Origin: Ferrithrix thermotolerans DSM 19514
Lineage (GTDB): Bacteria > Actinomycetota > Acidimicrobiia > Acidimicrobiales > CAIXPF01
NCBI GenBank assembly: GCA_945906305.1
Contig: CAMDQT010000021.1
Span: 1 to 59,744 of the forward strand
Direction of reading: 5' to 3'
Length of the DNA: 59,744 nt
The notes under the pieces are model-generated. The model was not told the DNA's origin, did not search any database, and saw only the letters and a list, made by a program, of their open reading frames with translations. Both the position numbers and the translations under genes were made by a program. Below, in pieces: positions 16,471 to 22,688 of the stretch; the first letter of the stretch is position 1, and every line of letters begins with the position of its first letter.

Positions 16471-16761
16471 ATGCCTGCTGAGACCCATTTGACGCAAGGA
16501 CCCGTGTCACGGGCGGAAGTGCTCGCCATCGTTCGTGAACGCCTGGCTGACATCTTGGAGATTCAACCTGACGTCATCGAGGAGGGCGCTTCCTTCCGTG
16601 ACGACCTCGATGCCGATTCGTTGGCGTTGATCGAACTCGTCGAGGCCATCGAAGAGGAACTGTCGGAGCGTACCGTCGGGTTCCGCATTGAAGACGACGA
16701 CCTCGAGGACCTTAAGACCGTGCGCGATGCCGTCGACTACGTTGTCGGACGCATCGGCTGA
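16471..16761 (+). CDS. acpP: Acyl carrier protein
   Basis: 96 residues, somewhat longer than the usual 77-80 because of a 12-residue N-terminal extension. The phosphopantetheine attachment motif DADSLALIEL places the modified serine at residue 50. The protein is strongly acidic, as expected. A good ribosome-binding site (AAAGGGAG) precedes the ATG. It lies between plsX and rnc, and the reading frame of rnc begins inside its 3' end. Confidence 0.93.
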   Translation: MPAETHLTQGPVSRAEVLAIVRERLADILEIQPDVIEEGASFRDDLDADSLALIELVEAIEEELSERTVGFRIEDDDLEDLKTVRDAVDYVVGRIG

Positions 16762-17491
16762 GTGCGCGGTCGCTTCGACGGACCTCGAGGCGTTCAGCGA
16801 AAGTCTCGGTCATCGCTTCGGTGATCTGTCGATCCTCGAGCAGGCCTTCCGCCATCGTTCCTGGTGCGGGGAGCACGGCGGGCCATCCAACGAACGGCTG
16901 GAGTTTCTGGGCGATTCGGTGCTCGGCCTCGCGGTTACCGATTTTGCCTACCATCGCTACCCCGACCTTCCCGAGGGCGCTCTGGCCAAGATCCGTGCGT
17001 CGGTCGTCAGCTCCGCCAGCCTTGCGGTGGTGGCCACCGAGTTGGGACTCGGTGCCTACCTCCTGCTCGGCCGAGGTGAGCAGAGCACCGGAGGACGCTC
17101 GAAGGCATCGATCGTGGCCGACGCGGTCGAGGCGGTGATCGGCGCGGTGTACGTTGACGCGGGCTGGGAAGCAGCCCGATCGGTGGTGCTGAACCTGGTA
17201 CAGGACCGTGTCGTGCGAGCCGCCGAGGGCGGCGCGGTTCTCGACCACAAAACTCGGTTGCAGGAACTTGTGGCCCGAAGCTCGGGCCATTCGTTGCGCT
17301 ATGAGATGACCGAGGATGGTCCGGACCACGACAAGGACTTCGTGGCCAACGTCCTCGTTGGCGAGGAGCCCATGGGTACCGGAACCGGTAAATCGAAGAA
17401 ACAAGCGCAGCAGGCCGCCGCCGGGGATGCCTGGGCGCGGCTTGTCCGCGATCGCGGAGAGAGAACGGACGTCGATGCTCGAACTACCTGA
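16727..17491 (+). CDS. rnc: Ribonuclease III
   Basis: About 254 residues. It cleaves double-stranded RNA in rRNA and mRNA processing. The signature NERLEFLGDSVLGLAV, the second acidic cluster DAVEAVIGAVYVDAGW and a C-terminal double-stranded RNA-binding domain (from about residue 180, ending GKSKKQAQQAAAGDAW) are intact. The start is uncertain: no start codon lies in frame after the acpP stop, so translation must begin inside acpP, at ATG 16727 or TTG 16742. The 3' end overlaps the fpg-like gene by 17 bases. Confidence 0.93.
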   Translation: MPSTTLSDASAECAVASTDLEAFSESLGHRFGDLSILEQAFRHRSWCGEHGGPSNERLEFLGDSVLGLAVTDFAYHRYPDLPEGALAKIRASVVSSASLAVVATELGLGAYLLLGRGEQSTGGRSKASIVADAVEAVIGAVYVDAGWEAARSVVLNLVQDRVVRAAEGGAVLDHKTRLQELVARSSGHSLRYEMTEDGPDHDKDFVANVLVGEEPMGTGTGKSKKQAQQAAAGDAWARLVRDRGERTDVDARTT

Positions 17492-18287
17492 GATCGAGAC
17501 CTTGCGCCGTGAGACCGAACGCGAGGTTGGCGGCCGCAAGCTCAAGGCAATCACCGTGCTGGAGGACCGTCTGGCCGCGGGCATCTCCGCCGCGGACCTT
17601 GATCAGGTCGACGGGGCCAAGGTCAGTGCCATCAAACGCCGACGCGGGAACTTGGTCTGGAATCTCGACAACGGCAACCGGTTGTTGCTCGATGTCTCGC
17701 GCGGCATCGCGCTGCGCCGGGCCAAGGGCGATGAGCCCACCGCGATGGAGTTCACCTTCACCCAGGGTGGTCCGCTACGGGTTCTCGCTGGAATCGGCGA
17801 CCCCAAGCTTGACCTGCTCACCGTGGCGGAACTCGACGCCAAATGGCCCCCTACGGGTGCAATCGATCTGGCTGAACAGGCGGTGTCCTGGGTGGTGTTC
17901 GCCCGCGCCTTCGTGGGCAACGGTGGCCCGTTGCGATCGCTGTTGACCTCCCCATCAATGGTCGAGAGCATCGGCGCACTGTATGCCGATGAGATCTTGT
18001 GGCAGGCCGGGCTGCGCCCGGACCGGCGGGCGGACAAGCTCGGATCCCAAGAACTGCGTCGGCTGTACCGCGCCGTCGCCGAGGTCTTGCACGATGCGCT
18101 CAAAGCTGGTGGGACAACGACGTCGGCGAACGGGTTCACCGATCTTGGCGGCAAGGCGGGCGGCTATCAGGACAGCCTTGAGGTCTGGGGGCGGGATGGC
18201 CTGCCCTGTCGTCGTTGTCGTGGCACCGTCGGGGTGGAGAAGTTCGAGGGCAAGCCCACGTTCAGGTGTGCCGACTGCCAGGTCTGA
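17475..18287 (+). CDS. Fpg/Nei-family protein lacking canonical catalytic residues
   Basis: 270 residues at the position of fpg (after rnc, before smc). The fold is complete: N-terminal domain, helix-two-turn-helix SIGALYADEILWQAGL, and a zinc finger with CRRC and CADC. Most functional positions differ from MutM/Fpg: the nucleophile Pro2 is Leu (MLELPEIE), the Lys of RRxKYL is Asn, the HLGMSG loop is missing, DPRRFG is replaced by DPKLDL, the Asn of GNIYA is Ala, and the zinc-finger Arg is Lys. Glu3 and Glu6 remain. It may be a non-glycosylase DNA-binding protein or a glycosylase using the Leu amino group, as NEIL3 uses Val. Confidence 0.8.
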   Translation: MLELPEIETLRRETEREVGGRKLKAITVLEDRLAAGISAADLDQVDGAKVSAIKRRRGNLVWNLDNGNRLLLDVSRGIALRRAKGDEPTAMEFTFTQGGPLRVLAGIGDPKLDLLTVAELDAKWPPTGAIDLAEQAVSWVVFARAFVGNGGPLRSLLTSPSMVESIGALYADEILWQAGLRPDRRADKLGSQELRRLYRAVAEVLHDALKAGGTTTSANGFTDLGGKAGGYQDSLEVWGRDGLPCRRCRGTVGVEKFEGKPTFRCADCQV

Positions 18288-18313: not shown

Positions 18314-19033
18314 TCAGTAGCTCTCGAGCGGGTCGCTGTCCATGACGAGGTGATGGACCTCGTTGATCGACTGCACGGAGCGAACATCGCCGAGGGCTCG
18401 CACCCGGTGGGTGGAGGCGTGCGCAGGGCGGAAGAACATGGCGGTGGACAACCCGAGAATTTCGCCGAGGTAGGCATTGATGACACCTCCGTGGCAGGCC
18501 ACCACAATGGTTCTTGCCGGGTGCCCAGTCACAATGCCTTCGATGATGTTGACCACGCGGTGACGAAACTCGTCGTTGCGTTCGCTGCCGGGATACACGT
18601 CCCAGCTCCGGTGGCGCACGAAGCGTTCTCGGGCGCCGCGGAGAACCAGCTCGTCGAGAACCTCCGTCGGGTGCGCATCCTGAGGAAGGTCGCGGAACAT
18701 CTCAATCTCGCGGAGGTCGTCGACGACTTGCACCTCAAGTCCATGATGGCTGGCGATGGCCAGCCCGGTGTCATGGGCCCGGACCAGCCTCGAGCTGTAC
18801 ACCGCATCGATGCGACGCGAGGCAAGGGCGAGCCCAACTGCCGCCGCTTGGCGTCGACCAATTTCGGACAACGGCGGGTCTACCCACTCCGACACCGTCG
18901 AGGTGGTCGGATCAGGCCAGACCTGCTGACCGTGGCGCACCAGGATCAGTTCGGTGATGTCCTCGATATTGGTGAGGAAGGCCCGGTCCAAAGGGGTTGG
19001 CTGCTTCGGCATTGCGGCGGGGGTCGAAGTCAT
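18314..19033 (-). CDS. Histidine phosphatase family protein (phosphoglycerate-mutase-like)
   Basis: 239 residues. The catalytic motif LILVRHGQQ and a second essential His in VACHGGVINAYLG are both present, with the intermediate YSSRLVRAHDTGLAIA and the acid in DDLREIEMFRD. It is an acid-phosphatase or cofactor-dependent mutase fold; the substrate is not predictable. The reading frame is open far upstream, but the ATG at 19033 gives a normal-sized N-terminus; a second ATG seven codons in is possible. It is divergent from smc across 169 bases in which no clear promoter was seen. Confidence 0.85.
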   Translation of the reverse strand: MTSTPAAMPKQPTPLDRAFLTNIEDITELILVRHGQQVWPDPTTSTVSEWVDPPLSEIGRRQAAAVGLALASRRIDAVYSSRLVRAHDTGLAIASHHGLEVQVVDDLREIEMFRDLPQDAHPTEVLDELVLRGARERFVRHRSWDVYPGSERNDEFRHRVVNIIEGIVTGHPARTIVVACHGGVINAYLGEILGLSTAMFFRPAHASTHRVRALGDVRSVQSINEVHHLVMDSDPLESY

Positions 19034-19202
19034 CGCCACCCAGCATGCCCGGGCTGGGCCACTGGCACCAACGCCGCCGCGGTCCGTCGTTGATGGAAGG
19101 CCCCGGTAGGGGTGAGCGACTAGGTTCTGCGTTGGCCAAGTGGGTGTCGTACCGGGTCGCCACCGTGGCGTGCCGTCGGTTCTGGGAGCGTCGAGACCGA
19201 CC

Positions 19203-22200
19203 ATGTTCCTGAAGTCTCTACAAATCCGCGGCTTCAAGTCCTTCGCCGACAAGGCATTGCTGGAACTGGAGCCAGGTATCACCGTCGTTGTCGGACCGAA
19301 TGGGTCGGGCAAGTCGAATGTGGTCGACGCCATCGCCTGGGTTCTTGGCGCCCAGGCACCGACGTCGGTCCGCTCCCAGAAGATGGACGACGTGATCTTC
19401 GCTGGCACCACCCGGCGGGCGGCCCTGGGACGGGCCGAGGTGTCGCTCACCATCGACAATTCGGCCGGCCTGTTGCCGGTCGATTTCACCGAGGTCACCA
19501 TCACCCGCACGCTGTTCCGCAGCGGTGACAGCGATTACGCCATCAACGGGGTGTCCTGCCGTTTGCTGGACATCCAGGATCTGCTCTCCGATGCCGGGGT
19601 CGGACGCAACCAGCACGTGATCGTGTCACAGGGCCAGATCGACGCCATTCTCAATGCCCGGCCCGAAGAGCGCCGTTCAATCATCGAGGAAGCCGCTGGC
19701 ATCTTGAAGTACCGCCGGCGCAAAGAACGGGCCGAGCGCCGCTTGGCCGGTGCTGAGGGTGATCTGGCCCGGGTGAACGACCTCCAACGCGAGCTGCGCC
19801 GCCAGCTTCGCCCGCTGGAGCGGCAGGCCGAAGCGGCGCAGCGTCACGGCGCACTGGCGGCTGAACTCGCGGCATTGCGTTCCTTTCTGGCGGGGCAGGA
19901 ACTGCAGGCCCTACGCGTCCGCCTCGAGGCGGTCACGAGCCGTCGGGCGCAGGCCACCGAACTCGCCGGTTCCCTGTCGAGCCGGCTGGCCCGGCTGGAT
20001 GCCGAGATTGTTTTCACCGAGGCCGAGCTTCACCGTCACGGCACCGGGGAGGTCACCGATCTACTGGCCCGTTTCGACACCGCCCGGGAACGGGCGCGCG
20101 GCCTTGATGCGGTGCTCGCTGAGCGTCGCCGCAGCGCTCATCGGCTGGCTTCGCTACGTATCGACGACGATCCGGTCGGGGCACTTGGCGATGAACTCGA
20201 GGTCGTCGCCGAGGCATCCGAGGACGCCACGACCCGTTTCAAGGGTCTTGAGCCGTTGCGGGTGGAGGCCGTCGAGATCGAGGCCAGGGTGCTGTCCGAA
20301 CGCGAGGCACTGCTCGCGCCTTCCGGCGGCGGCGTCGATCCTGTCCTGGCCCGAGCGGCCGAGGTACGGCGGGAGTTGTCGGCGCTGCGCTCGGGTCTGG
20401 ACCGATCCGGCGGGGAAGTGGGGCGGCTTCGTGACCGGGAACGGGCCCTCGCGTCCCGCTTGGTCGAGGCCGAGACCGAACGCGCCCATCACGACGGTAG
20501 CGAGGCCGATGCGGACACCATCGAGGACGAACTGGGGCGCACGGTCGAACGCGCCAAGGTGTCGCGGCAGCTCACCGAGGATGAGCTGACCCATGCCGAA
20601 GAGAACCTGCGAGAGGCCCAGGCCAGCTGGCGTGGGACTCAGGCCCGGGTCGAGGTGTTGGCGACCGCGCTTGAAGCGGCGCGTGCCCGAGCCGGTGCCG
20701 CTCGGCTTAGCCAGCTCGATGGAGTCTTGGGCACCTTGCTTGACGCCATCGACATCGACGTTGGCTGGGAAGGCGCATTCGAGGCCGCGGCGGGCGAAGC
20801 CCTAACCGCGGTCGTGGTACACGATGCTGACGTGGCCCGAGTGGCGTTGGGTTTGCTGTCCGCGTCGTCACAGGGCGGAGCGGTGCTTGCCGCCGGCCAT
20901 GGAAGCGGCCAGTCCACGGCCGCGGTGGCCGCGGCCTGGAGCGCGGTGGGCGAGCCGATCCGTCCCCATGTTCGTGCCCGGCGGCCCGAGGTCGACGCGT
21001 TGCTCGACACCCTGCTCGCCGACGCAGTCCGCGTCGGTGGAGAGTGGACGGCGGCGTTGAATGTCGCCGAGCGTCACCCGCAGGTCGTCGTGGTCACCGA
21101 TCAGGGTGACCGGTTCGGTCCGCAAGGGTGGCGAGTCGGCAGCTCCAGTACCGGGGTCACCGGCGCCATGCTCGAAGAAGCCCGGATCCAGGCGGAGTCT
21201 GCCTCGCTCGCGGTGGATCCGGCTCGACAGGCCATGGAAACGGCGCGGAGCCAAGCCAAGGAGTCGCGATCAGTCCATGAGCAGGCGGTGAGAGCGTCGG
21301 ATGAACATGCGGCCCGGCGTCGAGCGGCGGCCGTGGCCCTACAACGGGCCGAAGTCGCAGTGGCCGATGTGCAACGCGACCTGAGCACGGTGTCGGGCCA
21401 GCTGAGCGCAATCGACGAACGCAATCAGCGGGATCGGCTGCGCCTGGGCGAACTTGAGGAGCTGACGGCCAGCCTCGACGCGGCCGAAAGTGACGAAGCG
21501 GCGCGGGCGTCGGCGCGGGCGGCCGCCCAGGCCGATCTCGACCGTCGCCGGTTGGAGGCCGGTCGGGCGCGCATGGACCTTGAGGTGGCGGTGGCCCAGG
21601 TGTCCCAGCAGATGCAGGGTCTAAGCGAGCGTCGCCTCGACCTGTTGCGCCGCTTGGAACTCACCCGTGTTTCCCGCCAGGACGCCGCACAAGAGCGGGA
21701 ACGAGCCGAGCAGCGCCTCATCGTGTTGGAGCGGTTCGCGGTTATCGTCGAGGCGTGGGCGGGGCGCCTTTCGGTGGGTGCGGAGTTGTTGCACGCCGAA
21801 CGTCGACGCCTCGCCGAAGCGGCACGCGAGGTCGGCGGACAACTTGACGCCAAGCGCCGCGACCGCGCTGCGCTGCACGGCGCGATGGACGGCCAACGTG
21901 AGCTTGCGAGCCGGGCCGAGTTGGAACAGGCTGAGGTCAGCGTTCGGCTCGAATCCCTGCTCGAGCGCATCGCCCGAGAACTACCTTTGCCGGCCGCTCC
22001 GCTTGACGCTCTGAGCTGTCCGCCGTTGCCGGAGGGAGTGAGCGCCGCGGCTCGGGTCACTGATCTGGAGCGGGAGGTCGCGTCACTGGGGCCAATCAAC
22101 CCGCTCGCGGTTGAGGAACACCGCGCGCTCGAGGAACGCAACGCCCATATCGAGGACCAGGTCGCCGACGTCAAAGCGACCGCCCGGGAGTTGCAGAAGG

Positions 22201-22688
22201 TCATCAGGGCGATCGACGAGGAGATCAGTACTACCTTCTTCGCGGCTTTCGCTGATGTCTCCGCCCATTTCGAGCGGCTGTTCGCGGTGCTGTTCCCCGG
22301 CGGTACCGGCGCGCTGCGGTTGACGACCCCCGACGATTTGCTCAATACCGGAATCGAGGTCGAGGCCAAGCCTTCGGGCAAGAATGTGCGCAAGTTGTCC
22401 TTGCTGTCCGGTGGCGAGCGCTCGCTCACCGCCCTCGGGCTGCTCTTCGCCATTTTCCGCAGTCGGCCCTCCCCGTTCTACGTGATGGACGAGGTCGAGG
22501 CGGCCCTCGATGACGTCAACCTCCGACGGTTCCTCGGCCTGCTCGACGAGTTCCGCCAAGAGGCCCAACTGCTGGTGGTCAGCCACCAAAAACGCACCAT
22601 GGAAATCGCCGATTGCCTGTACGGCGTGTCGATGAAGCCGGGTGAGAGTTCGAAAGTGGTCAGCGAGCGTCTGCGATCGGTGAGCTGA
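19203..22688 (+). CDS. smc: Chromosome partition protein SMC
   Basis: 1161 residues, close to the usual length. SMC forms the ring-shaped condensin that compacts and separates chromosomes. Walker A GPNGSGKSN is at residues 31-39, followed by a long coiled coil, a hinge near residues 500-660 (LDGVLGTLLDAIDIDVGWEG onwards), a second coiled coil, the ABC signature LLSGGERSLTALGL (about 1068) and Walker B VMDEVEAALDD (about 1092). ScpA and ScpB are not in the window. In many Actinobacteria ftsY follows directly; here 8 kb of other genes intervene. Confidence 0.98.
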   Translation: MFLKSLQIRGFKSFADKALLELEPGITVVVGPNGSGKSNVVDAIAWVLGAQAPTSVRSQKMDDVIFAGTTRRAALGRAEVSLTIDNSAGLLPVDFTEVTITRTLFRSGDSDYAINGVSCRLLDIQDLLSDAGVGRNQHVIVSQGQIDAILNARPEERRSIIEEAAGILKYRRRKERAERRLAGAEGDLARVNDLQRELRRQLRPLERQAEAAQRHGALAAELAALRSFLAGQELQALRVRLEAVTSRRAQATELAGSLSSRLARLDAEIVFTEAELHRHGTGEVTDLLARFDTARERARGLDAVLAERRRSAHRLASLRIDDDPVGALGDELEVVAEASEDATTRFKGLEPLRVEAVEIEARVLSEREALLAPSGGGVDPVLARAAEVRRELSALRSGLDRSGGEVGRLRDRERALASRLVEAETERAHHDGSEADADTIEDELGRTVERAKVSRQLTEDELTHAEENLREAQASWRGTQARVEVLATALEAARARAGAARLSQLDGVLGTLLDAIDIDVGWEGAFEAAAGEALTAVVVHDADVARVALGLLSASSQGGAVLAAGHGSGQSTAAVAAAWSAVGEPIRPHVRARRPEVDALLDTLLADAVRVGGEWTAALNVAERHPQVVVVTDQGDRFGPQGWRVGSSSTGVTGAMLEEARIQAESASLAVDPARQAMETARSQAKESRSVHEQAVRASDEHAARRRAAAVALQRAEVAVADVQRDLSTVSGQLSAIDERNQRDRLRLGELEELTASLDAAESDEAARASARAAAQADLDRRRLEAGRARMDLEVAVAQVSQQMQGLSERRLDLLRRLELTRVSRQDAAQERERAEQRLIVLERFAVIVEAWAGRLSVGAELLHAERRRLAEAAREVGGQLDAKRRDRAALHGAMDGQRELASRAELEQAEVSVRLESLLERIARELPLPAAPLDALSCPPLPEGVSAAARVTDLEREVASLGPINPLAVEEHRALEERNAHIEDQVADVKATARELQKVIRAIDEEISTTFFAAFADVSAHFERLFAVLFPGGTGALRLTTPDDLLNTGIEVEAKPSGKNVRKLSLLSGGERSLTALGLLFAIFRSRPSPFYVMDEVEAALDDVNLRRFLGLLDEFRQEAQLLVVSHQKRTMEIADCLYGVSMKPGESSKVVSERLRSVS

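Follow-up and report, generated by a model that had tools for sequence, protein, structure and literature searches.

A degenerate MutM/Fpg orthologue, predicted to be a pseudoenzyme, in the rnc-smc interval of Actinomycetota

The rnc-smc region

The DNA analysed here (the window) is the whole 59,744 bp stretch from Ferrithrix thermotolerans DSM 19514, and the genes described below lie on its forward strand unless stated otherwise. An acyl carrier protein gene (acpP, bp 16471–16761), recognized from its sequence, is found 5′ of the RNase III gene rnc (bp 16688–17491), whose open reading frame opens at an upstream TTG and whose true start is probably near bp 16769. The next gene, called X here, occupies bp 17475–18287, overlaps rnc by 17 nt and encodes a 270 amino acid protein that begins MLELPEIETLRR. 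The smc gene (bp 19200–22688, in an ORF that opens at bp 19140) lies farther downstream, and between it and X there is a histidine-phosphatase-like ORF on the opposite strand (about bp 18314–19012; its start is approximate). The order acpP-rnc-X-smc, with this ORF as the one insertion, bears out the initial annotation's placement of X at the conserved rnc-fpg-smc position. In another genome of the same family (G005, locus L320) the phosphatase gene comes directly after rnc; X is cleanly absent there, and FpgB, the second Fpg discussed below, is kept.

Active-site residues and fold of X

X is a degenerate MutM/Fpg orthologue in which the residues that make the nucleophilic attack (Pro2), catalyze both steps (Lys57), probe for lesions (Met74, Arg109 and Phe111) and contact phosphate (Asn169) are missing. 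The catalytic Pro is replaced by Leu2 (codon CTC, bp 17478–17480), the catalytic Lys57 of RRGK by Gly58-Asn59 (bp 17646–17651), the lesion-probing loop HLGMSG, which carries Met74, by LDVSRG (bp 17688–17705), the R(R/T)FG motif with Arg109 and Phe111 by GIGDPK (bp 17790–17807; aligned catalytic orthologues of the rnc-smc locus read PRTFGE here), and the H2TH Asn169 of GNIY by Ala168 (bp 17976–17978). All of these changes had been listed in the initial annotation and are confirmed by alignment. The zinc-finger Arg is also changed, as was stated, and its replacement (Arg259 to Lys260, bp 18252–18254) is conservative, as is that of the H2TH Lys by Arg154. The predicted zinc-finger hairpin (bp 18195–18284) keeps its four cysteines (C245, C248, C265 and C268), and alignment with catalytic orthologues shows that Glu3, Glu6, Glu8, Tyr170, Asp172 and Glu173 are retained, the first two in an ELPE motif and in agreement with the original reading, which had named these two.

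The losses of X, including Leu at position 2, are carried by three congeners (72–88% identical) and one family relative (59%), and they recur across the order, whose orthologues are 35–45% identical to X. It had been pointed out at the outset that canonical residues in close homologues would imply an error in this sequence; the close homologues share the losses instead, and a sequencing error or frameshift is ruled out. An alternative start at Leu2 is likewise ruled out, the codon being CTC in all four species of the genus.

The complete Fpg fold originally claimed, with H2TH and zinc finger, is upheld by Pfam matches above cut-off to the H2TH domain (PF06831, 49.9 bits) and the N-terminal Fpg domain (PF01149, 37 bits), and by an AlphaFold (AF2) model of X from a 33-row alignment (pLDDT 93.6, pTM 0.89) that matches MutM over its whole length (1r2y, VIA-align Z 30.6 over 266 residues; 1ee8, Foldseek E 2.7e-25). 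X thus resembles MutM/Fpg of the rnc-fpg-smc locus in fold, length, H2TH motif, Cys4 finger, position and Glu3/Glu6, but it differs in the six residues lost, in a net charge near zero, and in falling below both NCBIfam fpg equivalog cut-offs (131.6 versus 203.3 bits and 137.1 versus 212 bits); both are exceeded by two catalytic orthologues (L013 and L020) and by the FpgB protein L001.

The degenerate state among linked orthologues

The orthologue set comprises 157 rnc- or smc-linked copies from Acidimicrobiia and further classes of Actinomycetota, 96 of them catalytic and 61 degenerate. When scored for five residues (Lys57, Met74, Arg109, Phe111 and Asn169) they are bimodal: 94 score 5, 60 score 0 or 1, and only four score 2 to 4. 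Because 61 of 157 orthologues share the loss and the distribution is bimodal, the loss of these residues at this locus is far beyond chance; the coordinated loss first noticed in X is a convergent state of the locus, which is more than had been claimed. A genome contig collection searched for close relatives yielded no protein of the X type from beyond Actinomycetota.

Of the 42 degenerate genera, 39 lack the catalytic Lys and 18 have lost zinc-binding Cys, and Glu3 is also missing from some members (MLALPE, MIFLPE). Pro2 persists in 19 of the 42 genera, its loss being complete in the window genome's family. Since Pro2 is only partly lost, the common core of the degenerate state is the loss of the lesion-reading residues and Lys, and loss of Pro2 is a further step.

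Several individual copies deserve mention. An intermediate orthologue (L012, genome G010) keeps Pro2, Glu3, Lys and His and has lost Met, Phe and Asn; no second Fpg was detected in that genome, and the gene is possibly a snapshot of the catalytic-to-degenerate transition. The degenerate copies in which zinc Cys are replaced (LSPRS/MSPRA, CEQTQ; L016, L033, L036, L039, L105–L108, L110, L120, L121, L123–L125 and L127–L129) still hold the invariant R247, C265 and Q269. Two catalytic-type linked Fpg genes (L047 of G016 and L150 of G249) are split across two frames, which may reflect a frameshift, an assembly error or a real state.

The Leu2 amine of X had been suggested as a nucleophile in the manner of Val2 of NEIL3, in which Pro2 is likewise replaced and which functions with Val. 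NEIL3 keeps the catalytic Lys, which X lacks. An initiator Met is not cleaved off by methionine aminopeptidase when Leu follows, a residue not small enough for this; Met1 of X would thus be retained, leaving the amine one residue too far along the chain. NEIL3 is trimmed to its N-terminal Val and is active. It needs the removal of Met1 (PMC11323726), so that Leu-amine chemistry is unlikely. More generally, an active glycosylase or lyase with an altered substrate or nucleophile is a very improbable reading of X. It draws on the retained Glu3 and Glu6, on the 19 genera with Pro2, on NEIL3, and on mycobacterial Nei2, in which Lys51 is needed for glycosylase and lyase activities and Pro2 for the lyase, the P2A protein retaining 5-hydroxyuracil glycosylase activity (PMC11323726). 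The K51A protein of Nei2 loses both activities, however, and the near-universal loss of this Lys in the degenerate genera, with Glu3 gone from some members, argues against activity. As the equivalent of Nei2 Lys51 and Pro2 are both gone, X should be catalytically inert; residual lyase activity is conceivable in those copies where Pro2 remains.

Phylogeny of the degenerate copies

Trees were made by quick methods. The rnc+smc locus tree has 10 changes between the catalytic and degenerate states, at least four of which are forced by starred branches, and the raw (unmasked) gene tree has four. Because relaxed proteins may attract each other, the catalytic columns were masked in a further gene tree, which has six changes, at least five of them forced, and rejects a single degenerate clade (AU test, p = 0.0013). 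A single origin of the degenerate copies, whether through vertical descent or through the transfer of a single gene, was hinted at by the unmasked tree and is rejected by the masked one. In the latter, degenerate copies of family f65 lie beside the catalytic copies of f65, those of f23 lie within f23, those of f58 group with f60/f63, and those of f86/f123 with f92/f95/f126, apart from the main order-level degenerate clade to which X belongs. Regain of a lost active site is unlikely, and we therefore take the changes to be parallel active-site losses at the locus, at least about five in number. The degenerate set has longer branches than the catalytic one. The f7 loci (L053, L137 and L144–L146), whose linked copies are catalytic, lie far off in the gene tree, but the rnc+smc tree places them close to degenerate families; in-place replacement of the gene is possible there.

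A second Fpg elsewhere in the genome

The window genome encodes three Fpg/Nei proteins besides X. One of these, FpgB (contig 6, L001), lacks none of the catalytic residues and is the second, canonical Fpg whose presence the initial annotation had thought worth checking. A second Fpg elsewhere accompanies 56 of 61 degenerate copies and none of 96 catalytic ones (Fisher 3e-37), where the threshold used for types other than FpgB was looser in the degenerate genomes than it was for all catalytic genomes of the class set. The FpgB clade alone is free of this threshold difference and is found in 50 of 61 degenerate versus 0 of 96 catalytic genomes (1e-30) or, counted by family, in 21 of 24 versus 0 of 53. 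Six more degenerate genomes (f58, and genus g68 of f23) carry a second Fpg of another type. No second Fpg was detected in five degenerate genomes, one of which is 68% complete and one of which has the intermediate orthologue; the other three cases (G022, G058 and G251) look real. FpgB was not detected in these three, so that with a degenerate MutM they have no recognizable 8-oxoG Fpg, and weaker Fpg/Nei-family matches were seen in them. In a pairs test on starred branches the second Fpg goes in the same direction in 3.8 of four pairs and in the opposite direction in none, four independent pairs being too few for significance in a sign test.

Degenerate X and FpgB occur strictly together, which could mean that X serves the replacement enzyme as a partner or regulatory subunit. 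Genus g56 (L046/L129) nevertheless retains X, with a dN/dS of 0.036, and FpgB is absent from both of its genomes; FpgB also persists without X in G005, and f58 and g68 have second Fpgs other than FpgB. With X persisting under selection where there is no FpgB, a partner subunit is rejected as extremely unlikely.

Selection, charge and the conserved surface

The dN/dS values of degenerate pairs are 0.10–0.32 in the window's own genus and 0.04–0.14 in eleven other pairs, the same range as those of FpgB and the catalytic copies, and the degenerate genes are under purifying selection. These values, as low as those of active genes, speak against X being a decaying relic that is held by nothing but its place in the rnc operon (through overlap, spacing or polarity). 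The 17-nt overlap with rnc, the loss of X in G005 and the longer branches of the degenerate set would all fit such a relic, but it is improbable, given also that the examined degenerate copies have open, full-length frames, that X is kept in nearly all FpgB-bearing genomes, and that one helix is more conserved than it is in the enzymes.

This helix (residues 186–215, bp 18030–18119) carries a polar face of Q192, R195, R199, E203 and K210 at helical spacing, a candidate interaction surface. Conservation of the helix is slightly higher among degenerate orthologues than among catalytic ones (identity ratio 1.08), with R195 present in 100% versus 86% and K210 in 95% versus 65%; segments 61–125 and 216–240, which include the probing loops, are relaxed in the degenerate set (identity ratio 0.64–0.68). 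The polar face is common to degenerate and catalytic linked copies and mostly absent from FpgB. It stands out by its retention; since it separates orthologues from a distant paralogue, shared ancestry alone could explain it.

The degenerate proteins keep Lys/Arg154, R247 and R249, and these, with the retained H2TH and zinc-finger folds, are what might be expected if X bound DNA without cutting it, in a structure- or lesion-specific way, as a sensor or an architectural protein beside smc. Against this, the Met/Arg/Phe probe and Asn169 are gone, as is Arg259 in most copies, zinc Cys are lost in those 18 genera, and the median net charge has fallen from +8 in catalytic copies to +1 in degenerate ones (pI 9.3 versus 7.6). 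We regard DNA binding of this kind as possible, though rather doubtful. Of the structural DNA-binding role proposed in the initial annotation, then, the non-enzymatic part is the best reading, and the DNA-binding part is weakened, since most contact residues are gone and net positive charge has been lost.

Possible function and relationship to known proteins

It seems probable from the sequence comparisons that X is a MutM-derived pseudoenzyme, kept for a non-catalytic role after its enzymatic work passed to a second Fpg: its catalytic residues are lost, it is under purifying selection, and an active-type homologue is present elsewhere in the genome. The second Fpg would have taken over 8-oxoG/FapyG repair and so freed X from catalysis, and X would have been retained because MutM at the rnc-smc locus does something else besides catalysis. 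That second function would most likely reside in the polar face described above, on the long helix of the C-terminal domain, together with finger residues R247 and R249, and would probably work by docking a partner protein that acts in replication, repair or chromosome maintenance. Extended to the phylum, the proposal is more tentative, about an even chance or a little less: MutM between rnc and smc in Actinomycetota may have a second function on its C-terminal-domain surface that comes to light wherever catalysis is taken over by a second Fpg, the protein having become a pseudoenzyme at least five separate times. A counterpoint comes from within the window genome's own family, where G005 has deleted X; the role is thus non-essential at least in that genome.

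MutM is a textbook enzyme and is treated as purely catalytic. Its repeated active-site loss under selection, nearly always with a second Fpg, amounts to a natural separation-of-function experiment, which suggests that something besides 8-oxoG excision is worth keeping and names candidate residues for it. Annotation by homology would label the degenerate copies 8-oxoG glycosylases, which is probably wrong.

A literature search, with most subscription papers outside its reach, turned up no account of a MutM pseudoenzyme. The nearest precedents for X are Fpg2 (Rv0944) of Mycobacterium tuberculosis, a truncated protein without the N-terminal part (PMC2734929), and a non-catalytic scaffold role of NEIL3 in crosslink repair, reported as cited in PMC11323726, which is a family precedent for such a role. 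Like X, Fpg2 is a degenerate Fpg-family protein of an actinobacterium with an intact Fpg elsewhere, but it lacks a domain, whereas X is full length, lies at the ancestral locus and has a state reached in parallel in several lineages. Fpg/NEIL proteins with a zincless finger (plant MMH and NEIL1; PMC9266487) resemble some degenerate relatives of X in having lost the zinc Cys and kept the hairpin; these are active enzymes, however, and X itself has four Cys.

A different departure from the canonical N-terminus is seen in another class of the phylum, where families f92 and f126 have rnc-linked Fpg proteins (L235, L238, L239, L242–L248, L252 and L254–L258) with nearly all other catalytic residues and no Pro; no FpgB was found in their genomes. 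The start codon, GTG or ATG, directly precedes GluLeuProGlu, and in L248, L252, L255 and L258 it stands right behind an in-frame stop. It is possible that the initiator Met would occupy the position of Pro1 in these proteins, with the Met amine as nucleophile.
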